Source of the DNA: a virus
DNA length: 49,308 nucleotides
Direction: 5' to 3' (one strand)
IMG/VR virus record: IMGVR_UViG_3300031753_000010
Coordinates: 1-49,308 of that record
The stretch's first letter is position 1, and each line of letters opens with the position of its first letter. Under the pieces are notes generated by a model. It did no database searches and was not told the DNA's origin. It saw only the letters and a program-made list of their open reading frames with translations. Below are positions 4,218 through 49,308 of the stretch, one piece after another. The position numbers were made by a program, and so were the translations under genes.

Positions 4218-5339
4218 TTACGCCGCGACGGGGACGTACTCACGCAGTTGATTCCAACGGGCTAGCGGTAGAGTGAGGATCTTTTGCGAGAGGCTCTCAA
4301 GCTCGGTCGCTCGCTCATAGCTCTGCGCCTCATTCGCGAGTCCCGTGACGGCGTTGAGCAGCCCCCACCGGGAATAGTCCCGGCTGCGGATCAGCTCCTC
4401 GAGCGCCGTGCTTGCCTCGGCTTCGTTCAGATCCAGCTCTTGCGCGATGGCCGGCATGGCGTCGATCGGCTTGAGGATCTCCCCGCCGGTTCTCAGCGCG
4501 CGCAGCTTCGTCGCCATTTCCACCATGAATTCGACAGAGCCGAGCGCCCGCATGACGTCGGATACCGCACTCATGATCGCCTTGTCGTCCAACCGGCGGG
4601 TCTCATCTGAGAGCACCTGAAAGTTGACGCCCTCGATCAGCTTTCCGCCAAGGTGCGCTCGCCGGAATTCCAGCACATCCGTGCCGCCGTACACGTTGCC
4701 GTTGCGGCAGTACGCGCGGTAGAAAAACCCACGGATGAACAGCGACCCCTTGCCGACCTCGCTGTTGCCCATGTGAAAGCCGGGCCTGATCTGCTCCGGT
4801 TTCCCCGTGGGGTCGAGCGCGCCGATGTCGAACACCAGCTTCTCGTCGGTAAATACGCACTTGATATCGAGCCTCTCATCCGTGACGTTGCAGGAGAGCA
4901 GCTCATTCGCGTAGTCGCGTGAGCTGATTACCGGCAGTGTCTCGGCGAGCACCTGATCGTTGTCGAGCCGCTGGTAGCGATCGCTGAGGAAAGCGCGCAC
5001 GTGATTGTCGATCGTGCGCACCAGCCGTATCGAAGGCTCGCGCTCGAAGAGCGCATTTACCTGCGTGATGACTAGATCGGGGTGATCGGTGAGCAGCCGT
5101 TCGTAGTAGCGGGCCGGGATTCCTAAGTGCCCGGCGATCTGCTGGTGAGCGGTGTCGTTGATCTCGAAGCGCTCCAACTCCTGCGCGCCGTCCCGTAGCA
5201 GTACACACGCGACGTTGTGCTTAAACCCCTTTGCCTCGACTATGCGCAGGGCGCCGGTCGGTGCAACGAAGTCGCGCTTCGCCTTCGCGTTGCGTTGGAC
5301 TTGAGCGAGCAGCTCGTGGAGTGTCTTACCTTGTTTCAT
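4218..5339 (-). CDS. DUF932-family phage protein (373 aa)
   Basis: The protein matches the DUF932 (phage/plasmid-like TIGR03299) family: a SxRYQRLDNDQVL segment, FDIGALDPTGKPEQIRPGF, then GKGSLFIRGFFYRAYCRNGNVYG, followed by a long helical C-terminus. The function of the family is unknown; members are common in phage and plasmid early regions. The start is the ATG at 5339, six bases after AGGAG; the frame open to 5405 lacks such a site. The leader GCACCGATAGGAGA is almost the same as the one ahead of the YqaJ-like gene. A gap of 98 bases to the next gene shows nothing obvious besides its ribosome site. Confidence 0.85.
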   Translation of the reverse strand: MKQGKTLHELLAQVQRNAKAKRDFVAPTGALRIVEAKGFKHNVACVLLRDGAQELERFEINDTAHQQIAGHLGIPARYYERLLTDHPDLVITQVNALFEREPSIRLVRTIDNHVRAFLSDRYQRLDNDQVLAETLPVISSRDYANELLSCNVTDERLDIKCVFTDEKLVFDIGALDPTGKPEQIRPGFHMGNSEVGKGSLFIRGFFYRAYCRNGNVYGGTDVLEFRRAHLGGKLIEGVNFQVLSDETRRLDDKAIMSAVSDVMRALGSVEFMVEMATKLRALRTGGEILKPIDAMPAIAQELDLNEAEASTALEELIRSRDYSRWGLLNAVTGLANEAQSYERATELESLSQKILTLPLARWNQLREYVPVAA

Positions 5340-5401
5340 ACAATCTCCTATCGGTGCAGAGAGAGCACCCCGCAGCGCGCTCTGACCGCGCTGCAAGCTG
5401 G

Positions 5402-6019
5402 TCACTCCGCCGCAGCGCCCTGGGGCTCACCACCTGCCCGGCGCATCACACGAAGCTGCCGCGCGCGCATGCGCCCCTTGAGCTTGCGGATCGCCCGCTC
5501 GGCGCGCTGCCGCTTCGCCTCCCACCGCGTGAGCAATCGCGCGTCGCGCTCGTTCGCCTGCGCGGTGCGTATCAACCCATCGCGTTTCGCCACCACCACC
5601 GGCGTGAGCCAATCAGTTGAGTGCTGCACGTAGTAGGCGATCTCGGTCTCGATCGCGTGCTCGCCGGTGGCGTGTGGCTGCATGCGCAGGCGCGTGCCGT
5701 CCTCGCGCAGGATGAGGCGGGGATGGCGATAGCGATGCACCATGTGCCCCACGTCATGAATGAGGCGGCCGAGCCCCTTGTGCGTGCCGGTGGTGGGGCG
5801 CGTGCTCGCCCAACAGCGCCGCCCAAGCGGGGCGCGACAGCCACACTCGAAGAGCACGCGCGCAGGGTCGATGTCCCGCCCGACGCTCGCGCAGGCATCG
5901 CCCTGATGGCCGAACCGCCGCAGCAGCAACTTCGCGTAGCGATATGCCTCGTGGCGGGTGAGCGGCGGATACCCGCGCGCGTGCAGTGCGTTAACAACAG
6001 CGTAGCGGGGGTCGCTCAT
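5402..6019 (-). CDS. Metallopeptidase-like phage protein with HDVGH motif (205 aa)
   Basis: Around residue 88 the protein reads LGRLIHDVGHMVHRYRHP, an H-x3-H pattern like the zincin helix but with D in place of the catalytic E, followed by HATGEHAIETEIAYYV. Related phage proteins have HEASHxVHRRxHP in the same place, so this looks like a zinc-binding fold with an altered catalytic residue. The N-terminus includes a helical domain with two cysteines (FECGC), and the C-terminus is a long basic coiled coil. It could be a catalytically inactive metalloprotease or a DNA-binding structural variant. The ATG at 6019 overlaps the previous stop. Confidence 0.6.
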   Translation of the reverse strand: MSDPRYAVVNALHARGYPPLTRHEAYRYAKLLLRRFGHQGDACASVGRDIDPARVLFECGCRAPLGRRCWASTRPTTGTHKGLGRLIHDVGHMVHRYRHPRLILREDGTRLRMQPHATGEHAIETEIAYYVQHSTDWLTPVVVAKRDGLIRTAQANERDARLLTRWEAKRQRAERAIRKLKGRMRARQLRVMRRAGGEPQGAAAE

Positions 6020-10463: not shown

Positions 10464-10696
10464 GCAGTACGACGGCACGAGTTAACGGGCACGATCACGT
10501 CGGCGGCCCCGAACCAACGCACCGGCACGTGGGTGTGTGGACGCTGGAAATGCGCAACATTCTGCTGGCTGATTACCAGGAGGCGCGCGCTCGAGGAACG
10601 CTGCCGGCGCTCGCGGCAAAGCTCGGCGTCGATCTGTACCAGCTCTATTCGCAAGCTCACCGCCTCGGCCTCGCCCGCGGGATTCGCCGTCGATGA
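10460..10696 (+). CDS. Small DNA-binding protein (78 aa)
   Basis: The start is the GTG at 10460, which overlaps the previous TGA (GTGA) and lies eight bases after GGAGG. The C-terminal half, LPALAAKLGVDLYQLYSQAHRLGLAR, resembles a helix-turn-helix in which the second helix precedes an RLGL segment, as in many small phage regulators. The N-terminus contains two His-rich spots. Function unknown. The next gene starts within its stop codon. Confidence 0.55.
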   Translation: MSSTTARVNGHDHVGGPEPTHRHVGVWTLEMRNILLADYQEARARGTLPALAAKLGVDLYQLYSQAHRLGLARGIRRR

Positions 10697-11343
10697 CCGC
10701 GCAGTTGTTACACGCCTACAAAGCCGTCGCCGTCGCCTCACTCAAGCCGTGGGAGCGCAACCCACGCACGCACTCGCCGGCGCAGATCGAGCAACTGCGA
10801 GCGTCGATCAGGGAATTCGGCTTTACGAATCCCGTGCTGATCGATCACAACGGCCTCGTGATTGCCGGGCACGGCCGCATCGAGGCGGCGAAGCTCGAAG
10901 GACTGACCGATATCCCGGCGATAGAGCTGCGCGGCTTGACGACTGAGCAGAAGCGCGCGCTGGTGATCGCCGATAATCAGTTGGCGCTCAAAGCCGAGTG
11001 GAATGTCGACTTGTTGAAGTTGGAGCTGCAAGCCCTCACGGGTAAAGGGTTCGATCTGTCGGTGCTCGGCTTCGAGCCCTTTGAGCTGAACGAGTTGCTC
11101 GGCGATCCCAATGATCCCAACAGTGAGTGGCGAGGCATGCCAGAGTTTGGGCAGGAGGATAAGCGCGGCTTTCGCACGCTGCTGGTGCACTTCGCCGACG
11201 CTGCGGCAGTCGAGGACTTCAAGCGCCTGATCGGGCAGAAATTCACGGACGAGGCGCGATACATCTGGCATCCGAAAGTCGAGTGGGATCGCGTCGGGCA
11301 GCTCGCCTATGTCTCGACGGCAGCGCCCGATGTCAAGCCCTAG
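10693..11343 (+). CDS. ParB-like nuclease-domain protein (216 aa)
   Basis: Residues about 10-100 form a ParB/sulfiredoxin-like domain: LKPWERNPRTHSPAQIEQL, FGFTNPVLIDHNG, the signature IAGHGRIEAAKLEGL, then the DNQLALKAEW segment seen in ParB-like proteins that accompany DNA-modification enzymes. The C-terminal half is unassigned. Such ParB proteins in phages usually sit next to a DNA methyltransferase. Here the next gene is a TAGT-type glycosyltransferase, with a 14-base overlap, which suggests that this protein guides or assists DNA modification. The ATG at 10693 overlaps the previous TGA. Confidence 0.85.
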   Translation: MTAQLLHAYKAVAVASLKPWERNPRTHSPAQIEQLRASIREFGFTNPVLIDHNGLVIAGHGRIEAAKLEGLTDIPAIELRGLTTEQKRALVIADNQLALKAEWNVDLLKLELQALTGKGFDLSVLGFEPFELNELLGDPNDPNSEWRGMPEFGQEDKRGFRTLLVHFADAAAVEDFKRLIGQKFTDEARYIWHPKVEWDRVGQLAYVSTAAPDVKP

Positions 11344-12241
11344 ATTCCCGCTGTACATTGTCAGCAAAGGCCGGGCGGAGACTCGCCATACTGCGCGCGC
11401 TCTAGAGGCAATCGGCGTTCCGTACTGGATCGTCGTCGAGCAGCAAGAGCGCGACGTGTATGCTGCGGTGATTGAGCCGTCGCGGGTGTTAGTGTTAGAT
11501 CCTGCATATCAAGAGCGCTACGACACCTGCGACGATCTCGGCACTACTAAGAGTAAAGGCCCCGGCCCTGCGCGCAACTTTGTCTGGGATCATGCGATAG
11601 CATCCGGTGCAGCGTGGCACTGGGTGATGGACGACAATATTCGCAGATTCTATCGCTGCGTTCGCAATCGCCGAGTACCCATCGGCGACGGCACTGGGTT
11701 TGCCGTGATGGAGGATTTCTGTCTGCGGTATACAAACGTCGCGATGGCAGGGCCGAACTACAAGATGTTTATCCCGAGCCGCTCGCCGTTTCGAGCGATG
11801 TGTCTTAACACCAGAATCTACAGTTGCAACCTCATCCGCAATGACGTGCCGTTTCGCTGGCGCGGGCGGTACAACGAGGATACTGATCTATCGCTGCGGA
11901 TGCTCAAGGCCGGTTGGTGCACGGTGCTATTCAACGCCTTTCTGCAAGATAAGCTCGCGACGCAACTCGTGCGCGGCGGCAATACGGCCGACTTCTATGC
12001 GCGCGAGGGTACCGAAGCGAAGAGTCGGATGTTAGTGCGGCTGCACCCCGATGTATCAGAACTGATGTGGCGGTTCGGCCGCAAGCATCATCTCGTTCAC
12101 TACAAGCGCTTTCAGAATAACCGCCTCAAGCTCCGAACCGATATCACCGTCGCAGACGGCGTTGATGACTACGGCCTCACGCTCGTTAAGCTCCGCGAGA
12201 CCGTCGCTGCACGAGTTACGCCACCGCCGCAACGCTCGTGA
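11330..12241 (+). CDS. TET-associated-type glycosyltransferase (TAGT) (303 aa)
   Basis: The pattern matches TAGT-family glycosyltransferases linked to phage DNA base hypermodification: an opening PLYIVSKGRAETR, RNFVWDHA, HWVMDDNIRRFYR (the DDN nucleotide-sugar/metal motif, about residues 101-113), AGPNYKMF, RYNEDTDLSLRMLKAGW (about residues 180-196), and a late RGGNTADFY followed by an HHLVHYKRF segment. These enzymes transfer a sugar to a modified pyrimidine in DNA. No TET/JBP dioxygenase, hydroxymethylase or methyltransferase was found in the window, so the acceptor base is unclear. The ATG at 11330 lies inside the end of the ParB-like gene. The acceptor and donor are inferred from the family. 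Confidence 0.75.
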   Translation: MSSPRFPLYIVSKGRAETRHTARALEAIGVPYWIVVEQQERDVYAAVIEPSRVLVLDPAYQERYDTCDDLGTTKSKGPGPARNFVWDHAIASGAAWHWVMDDNIRRFYRCVRNRRVPIGDGTGFAVMEDFCLRYTNVAMAGPNYKMFIPSRSPFRAMCLNTRIYSCNLIRNDVPFRWRGRYNEDTDLSLRMLKAGWCTVLFNAFLQDKLATQLVRGGNTADFYAREGTEAKSRMLVRLHPDVSELMWRFGRKHHLVHYKRFQNNRLKLRTDITVADGVDDYGLTLVKLRETVAARVTPPPQRS

Positions 12242-12633
12242 CTCGCCCCGCCCACCGCCCGCCGCATGCGCCGACGCCGGAGCAGCGCCAGATCGTTGAG
12301 CTCGCCGCTGTAGTGGGCATCCCGCACCACGACATCGGCCCCCTGGTCGGCGTCTCGATCAAGACGCTGCTAAAGCACTACCGCAAGGAACTCGCCCTCG
12401 GCAAGACACGCGCCAATGTGAAAGTCGGCGGCTCGCTCTACAATGCCGCGATCAAGGGGAACGTCGCAGCGATGATTTTCTGGATGAAAGCACAAGCCGG
12501 CTGGCGCGAAGTGCAACACCATGAGCACGCCGGCCCGGGCGGCAAGCCGATCGCACTCGCTGCGGCCTCCGCCAGTATCTCGGATGAGGACGCGATGAAG
12601 GTGTACTTAAAGTTAGTTTCGAAGGAGGAGTGA
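12238..12633 (+). CDS. Probable terminase small subunit (131 aa)
   Basis: A GTG at 12238 overlaps the previous stop (GTGA). The protein has an N-terminal helix-turn-helix-like part (TPEQRQIVELAAVVGIPHHDIGPLVGVSIKTLLKHY) and a helical region (YNAAIKGNVAAMIFWMKAQAGWRE) typical of small terminase subunits, which recognise packaging DNA. Its place is right for the role, ahead of the large subunit, though a peptidase-like gene sits in between. A ribosome site for the next gene (GGAGG) overlaps its end. Confidence 0.65.
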   Translation: MTRPAHRPPHAPTPEQRQIVELAAVVGIPHHDIGPLVGVSIKTLLKHYRKELALGKTRANVKVGGSLYNAAIKGNVAAMIFWMKAQAGWREVQHHEHAGPGGKPIALAAASASISDEDAMKVYLKLVSKEE

Positions 12634-12639
12634 GCCGCC

Positions 12640-13470
12640 ATGCCGATGAAGAAATACGGCCGCCGCCCCGCGCGGCATACGCTGCGCACGATGCGCTCAG
12701 CGATCGCGATGGATCGCTCTCTCAGCTCACTCGGCTCGCCCCCCGCCGTGAGTGATGACTACGTGACGCCACTCGTGAAAGCGCTCTCCGCGCTCTCGAT
12801 GCCCGGCGGCGGCGGAGGGCCATTCGGCATGTTTCTGAATGACGCGCTCGGCGATTGCGTGTGCGCGGATTCTGCACACCAAGTGATGCTGCACACCGCC
12901 TGCGCCGGCACCATTGTCGTGCCGACCGATGACGAAGTGCTCAAGCTCTACAGCGCCGTCGGCGGTTACATCCCCGGCAATGCTGCGACCGATACGGGGT
13001 GCGATGAGACATCCATGTGCGAGTACATGATTACGACTGGGCTTGCGGGTGAAAAGGCGTCGCGCTCGGGCTCGATCGATCCGGCGAATCTGGATAACGT
13101 GCGGTGGGCGGTGCAGCTCTTCGGCGCGTGCCGCTTGGGCATCGTCGTCGATCAGAACATGGAAACCGAGTTTGATGCGCAGCAGCCGTGGGCGACCGCG
13201 GCGAGTAAAGCCGATCCAACGGCGGGCGGCCACGACGTGCCGATCGTGAAGTACGACGAGCACTTCGCGTACGTCATCACGTGGGGCGCGCTGCAGGCGA
13301 TCACGTGGGAGCTGCTCGCCGAGTCGAGCTTCCTCGAAGAGGCGCACGCCGAAGTGTGGCCGGACTTCATCACCGCGACCGGCAATGCGCCGAACGGCTT
13401 TGATCTGCAGCAGTTGCTCACGGATCTGCCCTCGATCTCGCCCGGAGAGAGCCTCTCGCTGCGCGCGTGA
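12640..13470 (+). CDS. Papain-like cysteine peptidase-type protein (276 aa)
   Basis: The segments NDALGDCVCADSAHQ (nucleophile cysteine near residue 72, after GDC), GGHDVPIVKYDEH (histidine near residue 196) and YVITWGALQAITWELL (W and N/D region) follow the order of papain-like C1 peptidases seen in several phage genomes. The final residues form an acidic helix (EEAHAEVWPDFI). The role in a phage is unknown to me; processing of head proteins or an interaction with host factors are options. It lies between the two terminase genes, and its stop overlaps the GTG of the large subunit. The start at 12640 fits GGAGG; 12646 is an alternative. Confidence 0.6.
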   Translation: MPMKKYGRRPARHTLRTMRSAIAMDRSLSSLGSPPAVSDDYVTPLVKALSALSMPGGGGGPFGMFLNDALGDCVCADSAHQVMLHTACAGTIVVPTDDEVLKLYSAVGGYIPGNAATDTGCDETSMCEYMITTGLAGEKASRSGSIDPANLDNVRWAVQLFGACRLGIVVDQNMETEFDAQQPWATAASKADPTAGGHDVPIVKYDEHFAYVITWGALQAITWELLAESSFLEEAHAEVWPDFITATGNAPNGFDLQQLLTDLPSISPGESLSLRA

Positions 13471-15068
13471 GCGCAGAGCCACAAAGCGCCCCAGTCCCGG
13501 CGTTAGCGGATCTGTATGAGCATGCGCTGCGCGAGCGTATACGGCGGCTCAAGAAACTGCGCGCGCACCCTGAGATGCTGCCGGCGGTGCGGCGCTACTA
13601 CCGCACGCACATCGCGGACTGGATCAATGACTGGGGCGTGACGATAGACCCGCGCAACATCCGCAAGGGCTTGCCCGTCGTCATCCCGTTTCTGCTCGAT
13701 GAGCGGCAGCGCGAGTGGATCGACTTCACGCTGGATAACTGGAAGCACGGCCGCTACGGCCTCACCGTCAAGTCGCGCGACGTCGGCGTGTCGTGGCTCA
13801 TCGTCGCCCTCTCGATCGGGCTGGCAACGCTCTACGATGATCTCGCCGTCGGCTGGGGATCATTCAAGTCGGATAAGGTCGATCGACTCGGCGACATGGG
13901 CTCGCTCTTCGAGAAAGGCCGAAACTACATGGAAGGGCTGCCGCTCGAGTTTCGCGGCGGCTATGAGGCGCGCTCCTGCGCCTCACTCATGCGACTGCTG
14001 TTTCCTAACACCGGGGGTGCGATCTTGGGCGAAGTGGGCGATAACATCGGCCGCGGCAGTCGCACCGCGATCTACTTTGTGGATGAGGCCGCGCACCTTG
14101 AGCACGGCGAAGTGGTCGATGCGGCGCTCTCGAAAACGACTGACTGCCGGCAGGATGTCAGCTCGGTGTACGGGATGAACAACACCTTCGCCGTGCGCGC
14201 GCACCAGAAGGACGTGCCGCGGTTCGACTTTCACTGGCGCCACAATCCGCGCATGACGCAGAGAGACTACGAAGACTTCCTAGACACGTGGGGGCCGGTG
14301 ATTACGGCGCAAGAGCTGGATATGAATTTCCAGGCGAGCGTCGAGGGCATTGTGATCCCCGCGCTGTGGGTGAACGCCGCAGTCGACGCGCATCTCAAAC
14401 TCAAGATCAAGCCGACCGGCGAGCGCCTTGCCTCGCTCGACGTCGCCGACACCGGGCGCGACAAGAACGCGGCGGCGGTCAGGCACGGCGTGCTGCTTGA
14501 GCACGTGGAGAGCTTCAGCGGCAAGGAGTCCGATATTTATGCGACGGTGGAGCGGGCGTTTCTGATCTGTGACTCTTACGGGGCGATACGGAAAGTGCGC
14601 TACGACGCCGATGGGGTAGGGGCGGGCGTGCGCGGTGATGCGCGGAAGGTGAACGAGAAGCGCAACCCCGCGAAGCTCATTGCTGTGGAAGCGTTTCGCG
14701 GCTCCGCAGCGGTGTTAGATCCCACGCGCGAGATGGTCGAAGGCCGGCGCAACGAGGATCTGTTCGCTAACTTCAAAGCGCAGGCGTGGTGGGCGCTGCG
14801 TATGCGGTTTCAAAACACATGGCGCGCGGTGAACGGCGAGCCGTATGAGGCAGACGACATAATCTCGATTAGTTCCGCGATCCCTGAAAAGGCGAAGCTG
14901 CTCATCGAGCTATCGCAGCCGACCTACTCACAGAACCTCGCCGGCAAACTGTTGATCGACAAGCAGCCGGAGGGCACGCCGTCGCCGAATTTGGGGGATG
15001 CGGTCATGATGGCGTACGCTCCTGCCCGTAAGCCGCTGCGGATCGACGAAAGCGTGCTCGAGGACTGA
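13467..15068 (+). CDS. Terminase large subunit (533 aa)
   Basis: This is the ATPase/nuclease that pumps DNA into the prohead. The ATPase part carries a Walker A variant (KSRDVGVSW near residue 102), a coupling motif region (GSFKSDKVDRLGD) and a Walker B (IYFVDEAAHLEH near residue 200). The nuclease part starts at SLDVADTGRDKN (near residue 320) with the RNase H-like acidic residues, then RYDADGVGAGV. Length is normal. The start is a GTG (13467) overlapping the peptidase stop. Confidence 0.9.
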   Translation: MSAEPQSAPVPALADLYEHALRERIRRLKKLRAHPEMLPAVRRYYRTHIADWINDWGVTIDPRNIRKGLPVVIPFLLDERQREWIDFTLDNWKHGRYGLTVKSRDVGVSWLIVALSIGLATLYDDLAVGWGSFKSDKVDRLGDMGSLFEKGRNYMEGLPLEFRGGYEARSCASLMRLLFPNTGGAILGEVGDNIGRGSRTAIYFVDEAAHLEHGEVVDAALSKTTDCRQDVSSVYGMNNTFAVRAHQKDVPRFDFHWRHNPRMTQRDYEDFLDTWGPVITAQELDMNFQASVEGIVIPALWVNAAVDAHLKLKIKPTGERLASLDVADTGRDKNAAAVRHGVLLEHVESFSGKESDIYATVERAFLICDSYGAIRKVRYDADGVGAGVRGDARKVNEKRNPAKLIAVEAFRGSAAVLDPTREMVEGRRNEDLFANFKAQAWWALRMRFQNTWRAVNGEPYEADDIISISSAIPEKAKLLIELSQPTYSQNLAGKLLIDKQPEGTPSPNLGDAVMMAYAPARKPLRIDESVLED

Positions 15069-43633: not shown

Positions 43634-44614
43634 TCAGTCGCAGAGGGCCGGGGACGCTCTCAGGGTGCCCCGACCGCCGATCAGCTCAAGCGTGCGTAAG
43701 CGAGAGAGGGCGTTTCCGAAGCCCCCGCCGTTCGCTTCGTAGCCGGCCAGCGCCGCGAGCTGCTCTTTGGTCAGCTCGCCGGGGTAGGCGCGGCAAAGAG
43801 CTTCCAGGGCCGCCCGTTCGGCCTTTCCGAGCTGAGCGAGCCAGTAGGTGAGCAGCTCACGGCCCTGCGGCAGCGGCTCGAAGGGGCCGAGCCTCTCTAG
43901 CCCTGCCGGCGTGATCTTGAGCTGCTCGCCGCGCCCCTCAAGCAGCCCCGCGATGCGCAGCGCCGACAGAGCATTGCCGAAGCCGCCGCCGTTCACGGCG
44001 TAGCCCGTGAGCACCGCGGCCTGCACTTTCGAGCGCCCGTCGGGGTACTGAGCGAGCGCCGTCAGGATGCGCCGCTCGGCCTTCGGCAGCTTCTCCCCGG
44101 CGCCGTTGCCGCCGGTGGCGCGGGATGGCTTGGGAACAATTCGCGGCTGCGGCTCGACTCGCACCACACCCACATACGCAAGTGGCGCCCCCTCATTCAT
44201 CGCCGCATCGACCGCTCGATGCACAGCCTGCCGCAGATCCTTGTGATCGGCCTCGCGGTCCTTCAGCCGGTAGCGCTCGCCATCGGTTCGGCCGCGGTCG
44301 TAGCCGCGCTGCTCGGCCTGTCGCAGCTCGGCAGGATTAGTCTTCGCAACCGGCGGCGCACGCTTGGCGATCTGCCGCTCAAGCTCTGCGATGCGCGCGC
44401 GCAGCAGCTTCGGGTCACTCGCCTCGGCCTCTTTGATTGCGCTCGACAGCTTGCCGCGCACTTCCTCAAGGTCAACCTCCGCCCATCCTTTGAGCTTGCC
44501 CGCATCGGCCGGCTGCGGCTTGAAACTGTCGTAAGTCTTGAACATCGGCCACGCGATGCGCTTCGGCCCGAAGTCGATCTCGGGCGACCACACCCATGCC
44601 TCTTTGCGATCCAT
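43634..44614 (-). pseudogene. C-terminal fragment of a broken HerA/FtsK-like ATPase (326 aa)
   Basis: The frame from an ATG at 44614 is in register with the middle fragment; only a TAG (44626-44624) separates them (VLA-stop-LAGMDRKEAW). It includes the end of the ATPase (DRKEAWVWSPEIDFGPKRIAW), a charged coiled coil (LRARIAELERQIAK), and two similar winged-helix-like repeats with a YxxNGGGFGNALSxLR motif each (near residues 205 and 290). It could still be translated from its ATG as a DNA-binding remnant. Confidence 0.65.
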
Positions 44615-47543: not shown

Positions 47544-47873
47544 TTAGTTGAACGCAGGGCTCTCTTCCCGTTGCTCAGGCGATGCACTCAGTGGCGGCGC
47601 GGCCGGCGCCGGGAGGGCGCGCAGCTCGCGCAGCGAATCGTCGAGTGACTTTAATTCTTTGCTGAAGCGGTCGACGACGTGTGCGCGCTCTGTTTCGAGC
47701 ACGGCAATTTTCTCGACCCGCGCATCATCGGCGGATAGCTCGGGAAAATCCACCTCGACGAATTCGGTGAGCCGAACGTAATCGGCATCCTTCACCGCCT
47801 CGCGATCGAGCAGCGCCGTCGGCTTCCAGTCCGGCCAGCGGCGCCAGCCGTAGAGTGCAATGCGTGCTTTCAT
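47544..47873 (-). CDS. Hypothetical early protein with coiled coil (109 aa)
   Basis: Opens MKARIALYGWRRWPDWKPTALLD, then a DYVRLTEFVEVDFPELS segment, and a coiled coil (VLETERAHVVDRFSKELKSLDDSLREL) with a proline-rich end. Similar small proteins accompany recombination genes in some phages. The ATG at 47873 overlaps the annealing protein's stop. Confidence 0.6.
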   Translation of the reverse strand: MKARIALYGWRRWPDWKPTALLDREAVKDADYVRLTEFVEVDFPELSADDARVEKIAVLETERAHVVDRFSKELKSLDDSLRELRALPAPAAPPLSASPEQREESPAFN

Positions 47874-48778
47874 TTCGCGTCTCCTTTGTCGGTTTGGCCG
47901 CGCTTGAGCGCCAGCTTCTCGCGCACCGCGGCCGTCTTGGTCGCCGGCTCTGCGCCGGCAACGCCCTCCGGCATCTCAAACCAGTCGCCCGGCGCGCTCA
48001 TGCCGTCCTTGAGGCTGTTATAAATCGCAGCGAGGTTCACAAAGAGCGCAGGCGTAATCGCATCGAGATGCCGCTGTATGCGCTTCTCGATCTGCTCTTT
48101 GCTCACGCTGTATTCGGCGAAGCCGTCGAGCATGTTTTTCAGCCGCTCGGGCGTCAGTTGCACCTTCGTCGTGAGCGTTTTCTGAATCTGCACCACTGCG
48201 GCCTCGGTCACATCGCCGGGGATGATCGCGAGAATGCAGGCTCGTTTTCGCCGCGCGCCCATGTTGGCAATGATTTCGTAGATATCGCGCTCCTCGGTGA
48301 CGGGGTAGCCGCCCTGTCGCGTGTCGCGCCAGTGCCGCACGGTGAAGCGCTTCTCGTCGCGGAAGTTCGTCTCCAAATCCCACGCGTAGGCGAGACATTC
48401 GGACTGGCCGCCGTGGCGCGAAATCTCGGTCACGCCGCAGAGCATGTTGCCCCACTGCCGCGCCAGCTCCTCGGCGAGCCGGATCGATGGCCCCGTGACG
48501 GGCGTCCCGCCGCGCGCATAGGAGTAGAGCGCCGCCTCGGCGAGCGCTTGGCGCGTGCAGGCGGTGATGATGCGATCCCATGCGACTTTCGGATCACGCG
48601 GGAAGCGCTTCGCAATCACCATCGCGCTCTGCACCTCTGCGACCTCGCGCTGCACCAGCGCCGCCGCCGCAGCGCCGGTGGGAGCGGCGACGATCGGGCC
48701 GGTGTCGAATGGATTCAACGGCCGCTCATCCGGCGGCTCGACTGTTGCCTCTGCGACCTCTTTGCTTTCAGTGCTCAT
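47870..48778 (-). CDS. Probable ssDNA-annealing recombination protein partner of the YqaJ-like nuclease (302 aa)
   Basis: Start ATG 48778 with GGAGAAACTGCCG upstream. The middle matches a conserved phage protein type: CTRQALAEAALYSYARGGTPVTGPSIRLAEELARQWGN, ECLAYAWDLETNFRDEKRF, VRHWRDTRQGG, then ERDIYEIIANMGARRKRACILAIIPGDV. This GPSIRLAE-containing family sits next to YqaJ nucleases and is presumed to anneal single strands, as RecT/Bet do; I infer the role from position and from the resemblance of GPSIRLAE to RecT/ERF-like cores. Its C-terminus is helical with a basic tail. Confidence 0.6.
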   Translation of the reverse strand: MSTESKEVAEATVEPPDERPLNPFDTGPIVAAPTGAAAAALVQREVAEVQSAMVIAKRFPRDPKVAWDRIITACTRQALAEAALYSYARGGTPVTGPSIRLAEELARQWGNMLCGVTEISRHGGQSECLAYAWDLETNFRDEKRFTVRHWRDTRQGGYPVTEERDIYEIIANMGARRKRACILAIIPGDVTEAAVVQIQKTLTTKVQLTPERLKNMLDGFAEYSVSKEQIEKRIQRHLDAITPALFVNLAAIYNSLKDGMSAPGDWFEMPEGVAGAEPATKTAAVREKLALKRGQTDKGDAK

Positions 48779-48792
48779 CGGCAGTTTCTCCT

Positions 48793-49308
48793 TCACCCTT
48801 TGATGTTGATAAAACGCGCGTCTATGAAGCTCGTCGGCTCGACGCTGTAGCCCTTGCGCTCGATTTTCTGCCGCCGCAGCGCGCGGCCGTCCGGGAAGCG
48901 CAACAGCGCCGCCTCGCCCATGAAGTCGAGCAGCGCCGCCTTCGCCTCTTTCTCGAATGCTGCGGCCGCTTTGCCTTCAGCCTTCGCCCTCTCTAACTGT
49001 GGGCGCCAGTGATTCACCATCAAATCATCGGCGTCGACCGTCTGCCCGTTAGAACCGGGATAGAGTTTCTTCAGCACGTTGATTGCGCCCGGCGAGCGCA
49101 AGTCGAGCTGCGGGCGCGTGCGGTGCAGGACGTGCTGCCAGAATTCGGACTCGGCTTCGAGCATTGCGGCGTGCAGCTCCGGGTCGGCCTCGATCGTGTA
49201 AATGCGAAAGTCCTGGCCCGCGATCAACACGGCAAGATCGGCGACGAGCAGCCCCGTCACCATCATCGCGTGTTGCGTCTGGATCAGATAGTGCTCCGGC
49301 ACCTCATC
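48793..49308 (-). CDS. YqaJ-type phage exonuclease, C-terminal part (gene crosses the circular junction)
   Basis: This is the 3' part of the nuclease that begins at base 230. In the window it is open to the right edge; the GTG at 49302 is an internal valine, not the true start. The part carries the YqaJ C-terminal pattern: HYLIQTQHAMMVTG, then DLAVLIAGQDFRIY, then a helical segment rich in E, A and W. The stop at 48793 lies just before the ribosome site of the next leftward gene, a probable annealing protein. That makes a nuclease/annealase pair as in lambda exo/bet, which is inferred from order. Confidence 0.75.
   Translation of the reverse strand, partial: DEVPEHYLIQTQHAMMVTGLLVADLAVLIAGQDFRIYTIEADPELHAAMLEAESEFWQHVLHRTRPQLDLRSPGAINVLKKLYPGSNGQTVDADDLMVNHWRPQLERAKAEGKAAAAFEKEAKAALLDFMGEAALLRFPDGRALRRQKIERKGYSVEPTSFIDARFINIKG
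49235..49308. repeat. Terminal direct repeat marking the circular junction (right copy)
   Basis: This is the exact copy of bases 1-74 at the right end. It lies within the YqaJ-like nuclease gene, whose coding frame continues at base 1 of the window. Confidence 0.95.

Follow-up and report, generated by a model that had tools for sequence, protein, structure and literature searches.

The two overlapping genes described here, encoding a ParB-like protein and a TAGT glycosyltransferase, are best read, in our view and with some reserve, as a ParB-targeted complex that glycosylates phage DNA and is expressed together with the packaging genes. Under this reading, the ParB_N domain would bind or encircle the DNA of the phage, with a nucleotide probably controlling this step as it does in ParB and Noc, and a small domain at the ParB C-terminus—MPEF, described below—would dock TAGT. 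TAGT, a putative nucleotide-sugar transferase of the GT-A type, would then place a sugar on progeny DNA before packaging, and the sugar would shield that DNA from restriction or other DNA-targeting defences.

Both genes lie on a 49.3-kb IMG/VR virus record (63.6% G+C; the whole stretch was analysed and is referred to as the window). Portal, protease and major head genes were found in it, and the virus is a tail-sheath phage to which the phage collection held no close DNA relative. The original prediction had a ParB-like gene overlapping a TAGT gene at these positions, and matches to ParB_N and PF20691 confirmed both genes and their overlap (Table 1). As called by the ORF finder, the two frames share 35 nt. 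TAGT homologues, however, begin with a common start motif, MxPxFPxYI, and the true start of the window TAGT is therefore probably the ATG at 11330, from which the overlap with ParB shrinks to a family-typical 14 nt. The TAGT stop in turn overlaps the start of the terminase small subunit at 12238, placing TAGT directly upstream of terminase in the order ParB_N-MPEF, TAGT, TerS, one gene, TerL. The gene separating TerS from TerL occupies an unusual insertion site and encodes a 276-aa protein (12640-13470) that matches a PHROG of unknown function (PHROG 19005, E=1e-36).

Table 1 Features of the ParB–TAGT region and related loci (positions refer to the window unless a locus is named)
Feature	Position	Strand	Basis
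ParB_N-MPEF protein, 216 aa	10693..11343	+	Pfam, PHROG; alignment with 33 relatives
ParB_N (CTPase-fold) domain, residues 10-90	10720..10962	+	Pfam boundaries; structure predicted for the homologous L143 domain
MPEF domain, residues 141-197, W-x-G-MPEF ... W-x-P; putative link between ParB and TAGT	11113..11283	+	Profile built on relatives
TAGT glycosyltransferase, ORF of 310 aa; 303 aa from likely start 11330	11309..12241	+	PF20691, PHROG 842, alignment, start context
D-D-N motif, residues 108-110 of the 310-aa ORF; putative metal/nucleotide-sugar site	11630..11638	+	31 aligned TAGTs; role by comparison with GT-A enzymes
E-D motif in RYNEDTDLS, residues 190-191; probable catalytic base region	11876..11881	+	31 aligned TAGTs; role by comparison with GT2-type enzymes
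Terminase small subunit (TerS)	12238..12633	+	PHROG 309, E=8e-13
Terminase large subunit (TerL)	13467..15068	+	PHROG 2, E=6e-20
DpdA-like gene	383-1123	minus	PHROG 887, E=2.6e-64; Pfam without match at 0.05
ParB + ABC-ATPase-GNAT loci	L224:2725-3795, L228:2707-3807		

The ParB-like protein matched Pfam ParB_N (PF02195; E=1.1e-6, 29 bits against a cut-off of 26.3) and PHROG 620, annotated as 'ParB-like partition protein' (E=4e-50). It also matched the ParB-methyltransferase family PHROG 498 (E=2e-45), though only over profile positions 33-172 of 633; its chain contains no methyltransferase domain, and PF01555 was absent from the window. Pfam recognised ParB_N alone in the 216 residues, with neither a helix-turn-helix (HTH) nor a C-terminal dimerisation domain, and residues 141-197 are instead occupied by MPEF. 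No ParA was found among the window proteins scanned (some small ORFs lay outside the scan). In these respects the protein differs from the canonical ParB/Noc CTPase clamps, whose N-terminal fold it is nevertheless predicted to share: in a modelled homologue (L143, see below), the ParB part resembled M. xanthus ParB with CTP-gamma-S (7bnr; Z 13.2, rmsd 2.0, 91 residues, 30% identity). This predicted fold, together with a box-II-like GHGR motif in ParB, points to nucleotide use, and varied ParB folds, those of phage ParBs included, are reported to bind CTP, ATP or GTP (PMC12704722). The ParB protein is acidic, and the TAGT encoded next to it is basic (pI 9.7).

Judged by profile score, membership of the window TAGT in PF20691 is secure (E=4e-39, 135.1 bits against a cut-off of 27.5, residues 13-223), and the protein also matched PHROG 842 (E=2e-42). 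Residues D108, D109, N110, E190 and D191 were invariant across 31 aligned TAGTs; the enzyme thus looks intact, and it is likely a working glycosyltransferase. For TAGT we predict a GT-A-type fold from an AlphaFold2 model of the homologue L143 (pLDDT 90, pTM 0.82), in which the TAGT part resembled GalNAc-T2 (6nqt; Z 14.3, rmsd 4.3, 229 residues aligned) and also Chlorella virus hyaluronan synthase. A characterised enzyme of PF20691, the T6/T2 beta-glucosyl-HMC-alpha-glucosyltransferase, is likewise a TAGT with a GT-A fold, and in T6 it acts on a base that has been hydroxymethylated and glucosylated beforehand (PMC13216743). The DD and ED motifs of the T6 enzyme align with those of the window TAGT, but the two proteins are only 18% identical, and the T6 enzyme lacks MPEF and ParB and adjoins a dCMP hydroxymethylase gene. 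Since the window carries no such hydroxymethylase, equivalence to T6 diglucosylation is not secure; nor did we transfer the T6 function to the window clade, because the hhalign profile link was not significant.

To define how often the two genes occur together, TAGT queries were run against viral contigs and 84,980 bacterial and archaeal species genomes, and against cultured phages via tblastn. This yielded 120 non-redundant TAGT domains (97% identity), 118 of which were uncut by a contig end and hence informative. In 117 of these 118 loci, a domain of ~57 aa—termed MPEF after its W-x-G-MPEF motif, and C-terminal in the window ParB—lay at the N-terminus of TAGT as a fusion or was encoded immediately before it; in 74 it was joined to ParB_N. 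MPEF had no match in Pfam or PHROGs. When MPEF alone served as the query, a full same-strand TAGT was present at 73 of 77 new loci, the remaining four having a partial TAGT (three) or being cut off (one). With the MPEF-query loci added, ParB was found at 121 of 182 loci. Another 42 had separate MPEF and TAGT genes and 16 had MPEF-TAGT fusions, all without ParB, which argues that the chemistry does not require ParB.

Four architectures were observed: ParB-MPEF followed by TAGT, an MPEF-only protein followed by TAGT, MPEF fused to TAGT, and ParB-MPEF-TAGT in a single chain. The single-chain form occurs in L143 (515 aa) and L193 (673 aa), and the MPEF-TAGT fusion in the cultured phages Kuja, Aeh1, PTm1, POP12, 1.124.O and 1.076.O. 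In Vibrio phage henriette 12B8 (L083:7500-8950), the MPEF and TAGT frames are mutually broken and unannotated, maybe owing to a frameshift or a sequencing error. While tblastn with the MPEF region recovered nothing from cultured phages, a profile search detected divergent copies in seven of them. A small model of MPEF alone was of moderate confidence (pLDDT 81, pTM 0.51) and had no match when compared by Foldseek with the PDB at E<=10, a result that does not imply a new fold. On a FastTree phylogeny of 179 sequences, parsimony counted 18 changes of architecture and 13 of ParB presence, with well-supported branches forcing only three or four changes per state. MPEF is thus the near-constant partner of the window-type TAGT clade, and ParB an interchangeable module.

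The cassette is found repeatedly in bacterial as well as archaeal viruses, and its arrangement is shared by viral contigs and prophages so diverse as to imply more than chance. The original prediction that ParB and TAGT work as one unit is supported by this recurrence, by the MPEF linkage and by the fusions; ParB, MPEF and TAGT are very likely physical partners within one complex. TerL lies downstream of TAGT on the same strand in 114 loci, and many relatives have a TerS homologue directly after TAGT. This shared direction with terminase suggests that the cassette is expressed late and that progeny genomes are modified before they are packaged.

Several kinds of genes were found between, adjoining or fused to MPEF and TAGT, namely NAD-dependent sugar epimerases, members of a class-I methyltransferase family, an FkbM methyltransferase, radical-SAM proteins, GT-B transferases and tandem TAGTs. 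At L128:3218-4522, for instance, a GT32-type (Gly_transf_sug) transferase is fused N-terminally to ParB-MPEF and TAGT lies downstream; a divergent second TAGT is fused to ParB in L029 and L051, and in L039 and L103 radical-SAM genes separate ParB-MPEF from TAGT. Such sugar-tailoring neighbours would fit the addition of a sugar that is in some cases extended or methylated. One 777-aa ORF (L048:1901-4231) combines TAGT with an SNF2-type helicase.

ParB also accompanies a second, divergent group of TAGTs. E. coli phage vB_EcoS-611R4 encodes ParB, TAGT and a small ORF followed by the terminase small subunit; its TAGT is 25% identical to that of the window, and its ParB—YnaK in RefSeq—adjoins trkG as in Rac-type prophages. 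The YnaK-TAGT pair was present at >=80% length in 885 of 5,426 complete E. coli genomes, and the TAGT gene of this clade, taken alone, at >=80% in 867. In some strains, such as E. coli M18 (L230:9001-10717), ynaK is annotated as truncated with TAGT intact. Among viral contigs, ParB overlaps TAGT in 79 of 80 second-clade loci, some 50 of which are near-identical enterobacterial prophages. Cultured members include the temperate Lactobacillus gasseri phage phi jlb1, whose order ParB-TAGT-TerS-TerL-portal is that of the window save for small genes inserted into it, L. delbrueckii phage c5, in which cos is followed first by ParB and TAGT, and Haloarcula hispanica tailed virus 2 (HHTV-2). In all of these TAGT immediately follows ParB, and terminase adjoins in most; unlike in the window, however, the ParB proteins carry another C-terminal domain, and MPEF was undetected in YnaK and the ParBs of the viral contigs. 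This clade represents a second, independent pairing of TAGT with ParB. The open-access literature yielded no description of a ParB–TAGT pair; the 2013 paper by Iyer et al., outside that scope, reportedly defined TAGT and may already mention ParB neighbours.

What TAGT modifies can be approached through the other partners of ParB beside terminase. In Psychrobacter phage Y8A (L221:2465-3722), the order is ParB-Mom-TerS-TerL, the second gene belonging to the Mom family (Pfam Mom PF25680, E=1.8e-55; PHROG 1384, E=1.7e-52). ParB family and gene order are as in the window, but Mom takes the place of TAGT, and the Y8A ParB scores very weakly on the MPEF profile (E=0.015). This ParB–Mom pair merits separate study. 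A methyltransferase had been predicted to fill the partner slot in other phages, and this was indeed seen: in Moraxella phage Mcat8 a separate ParB is accompanied, beside terminase, by a DNA methyltransferase and a second methyltransferase, and ParB-fused methyltransferases occur in Vibrio phage 1.213.O, NatCom_34063 and Touem01. The ParB-N6/N4-methyltransferase fusions of PHROG 498 have a ParB_N close to that of the window, but hold their catalytic partner in the same chain and lack MPEF. Finally, in Pseudoalteromonas phage SL25 and Pasteurella phage Pmp13, the gene after ParB and before terminase encodes an ABC-ATPase-GNAT protein (PHROG 11143, unknown function), possibly another DNA-modifying ParB partner. 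Mom and N6/N4-methyltransferases act directly on DNA bases. Given that these enzymes share the slot, TAGT most simply modifies DNA too; DNA is, by this analogy, its probable substrate, in line with the original prediction. That prediction did not extend to the MPEF adaptor, to the fusions in a single chain or to the sugar-tailoring genes nearby, nor did it cover the ParB–Mom pairs or the second clade, which E. coli prophages share with other cultured viruses.

The original prediction also saw no enzyme that would make an acceptor base, and profile searches bore this out in part: thymidylate-synthase-type hydroxymethylases, C5-methyltransferases and PF13640 oxygenases were all absent from the window. 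The PF00303 model (dCMP hydroxymethylase/thymidylate-synthase family), silent on the window record, matched nine control genomes. TAGT takes its name from an association with TET/JBP oxygenases; the Tet_JBP model matched none of 49 records but was equally silent in control genomes, rendering this result uninformative, and divergent TETs may be missed. Among 41 cassette records, many of them fragments, we found the thymidylate-synthase family in six, a C5-methyltransferase in five, a PF13640 oxygenase in three, an N6/N4-methyltransferase in four and a DpdA-like protein in four; no tested acceptor-related family was common to all 41. The complete phages c5 (31.8 kb, 50 ORFs) and phi jlb1 (38.3 kb, 54 genes) have no acceptor-maker by annotation and no thymidylate-synthase-family match. 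Possible acceptors are thus a base without modification, the product of an unrecognised enzyme, and something other than a base.

It is a serious possibility, if short of probable, that some unrecognised enzyme, of phage or host origin, supplies a 5-hydroxymethyl- or 5-hydroxypyrimidine, which ParB-TAGT then glycosylates. This is compatible with a DNA-glycosylation complex, from which it differs in the acceptor alone. Enzymes of the thymidylate-synthase family, to which the hydroxymethylases belong, are present in five of the seven cultured MPEF-TAGT phages (henriette 12B8, Kuja, PTm1, Aeh1 and POP12). The radical-SAM genes amid the cassette in L039 and L103, the TETs that may have escaped the model, and several window ORFs without a family match would fit as well. 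However, the six thymidylate-synthase matches fall in those five large cultured phages and in the contig of L016, all without ParB; they fit hydroxymethyl-pyrimidine acceptors there and have little bearing on the small ParB-bearing phages. The low counts of every candidate family among the cassette records, and the lack of an annotated candidate in c5 and phi jlb1, likewise speak against a conventional acceptor. Three sizeable minus-strand proteins of the window, of unknown function, remain candidates for an unrecognised acceptor-maker: 47870-48796 (PHROG 3657, E=6e-92), 4218-5405 (PHROG 1362, E=9e-41) and 43634-44614 (no match). More tentatively, and as something we would not expect, ParB-directed TAGT might transfer its sugar straight to a base that carries no modification, perhaps at an exocyclic amine, making the system self-sufficient. 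The argument is one of analogy, as Mom and the N6/N4-methyltransferases share the ParB family and need no pre-installed acceptor. If true, direct glycosylation of an unmodified base would be chemistry new for viruses of bacteria and archaea.

The dearth of acceptor-makers is also among the points in favour of a quite different target, a virion or host protein, in which case the proximity of TAGT to ParB and terminase would reflect a late operon. The cassette adjoins terminase and portal genes, the predicted fold resembles protein O-GalNAc transferases, and RefSeq labels some E. coli members 'GREB1-related', GREB1 having been linked to protein glycosylation. We nonetheless consider a protein target improbable: the enzymes found in the same slot after ParB, Mom and DNA methyltransferases, are DNA modifiers, the TAGT of L048 is fused to an SNF2-type helicase, and the known TAGT relatives, the T6 enzyme and the kinetoplastid base-J transferase, work on DNA.

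Very doubtful is a 7-deazaguanine acceptor inserted into DNA by a DpdA-like enzyme. The DpdA-like gene that had been linked to the cassette is present in the window, and a sugar-bearing deazaguanine, glycosylated queuosine, occurs in tRNA. A tie of the DpdA-like gene to TAGT, by contrast, was not supported. The gene lies ~10 kb away on the opposite strand, and as the window held no recognisable gene for deazaguanine synthesis, the DpdA-like protein would need a host precursor. With DpdA-like proteins in just four of the 41 cassette records, DpdA is out as a general acceptor-maker, and the proposed dual modification of a purine and a pyrimidine is only a possibility for this one phage. That ParB and TAGT are unrelated and merely share a crowded spot upstream of terminase, where ParB without TAGT is common, is scarcely credible, since chance co-location of two terminase-side genes is ruled out by the TAGT-specific MPEF at the ParB C-terminus and the fusions, and is further contradicted by the existence of two ParB-paired TAGT clades.

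A 2026 survey reported TAGT without the two classical T4 glucosyltransferases in 288 of 753 GT-bearing phage genomes and left its function open (PMC13216743). For such solitary TAGTs, a ParB-targeted DNA-glycosylation complex would offer a concrete, testable role, suggested by their link to ParB, by an MPEF domain specific to TAGT and by a slot that Mom and methyltransferases occupy elsewhere. Copies are available in culturable systems, being carried by about one sixth of complete E. coli genomes and by the phages phi jlb1 and c5. Should the substrate be DNA, a sugar modification without a recognised acceptor-maker would represent new chemistry and a widespread, unrecognised counter-defence, and MPEF could be used as a marker to find such systems.
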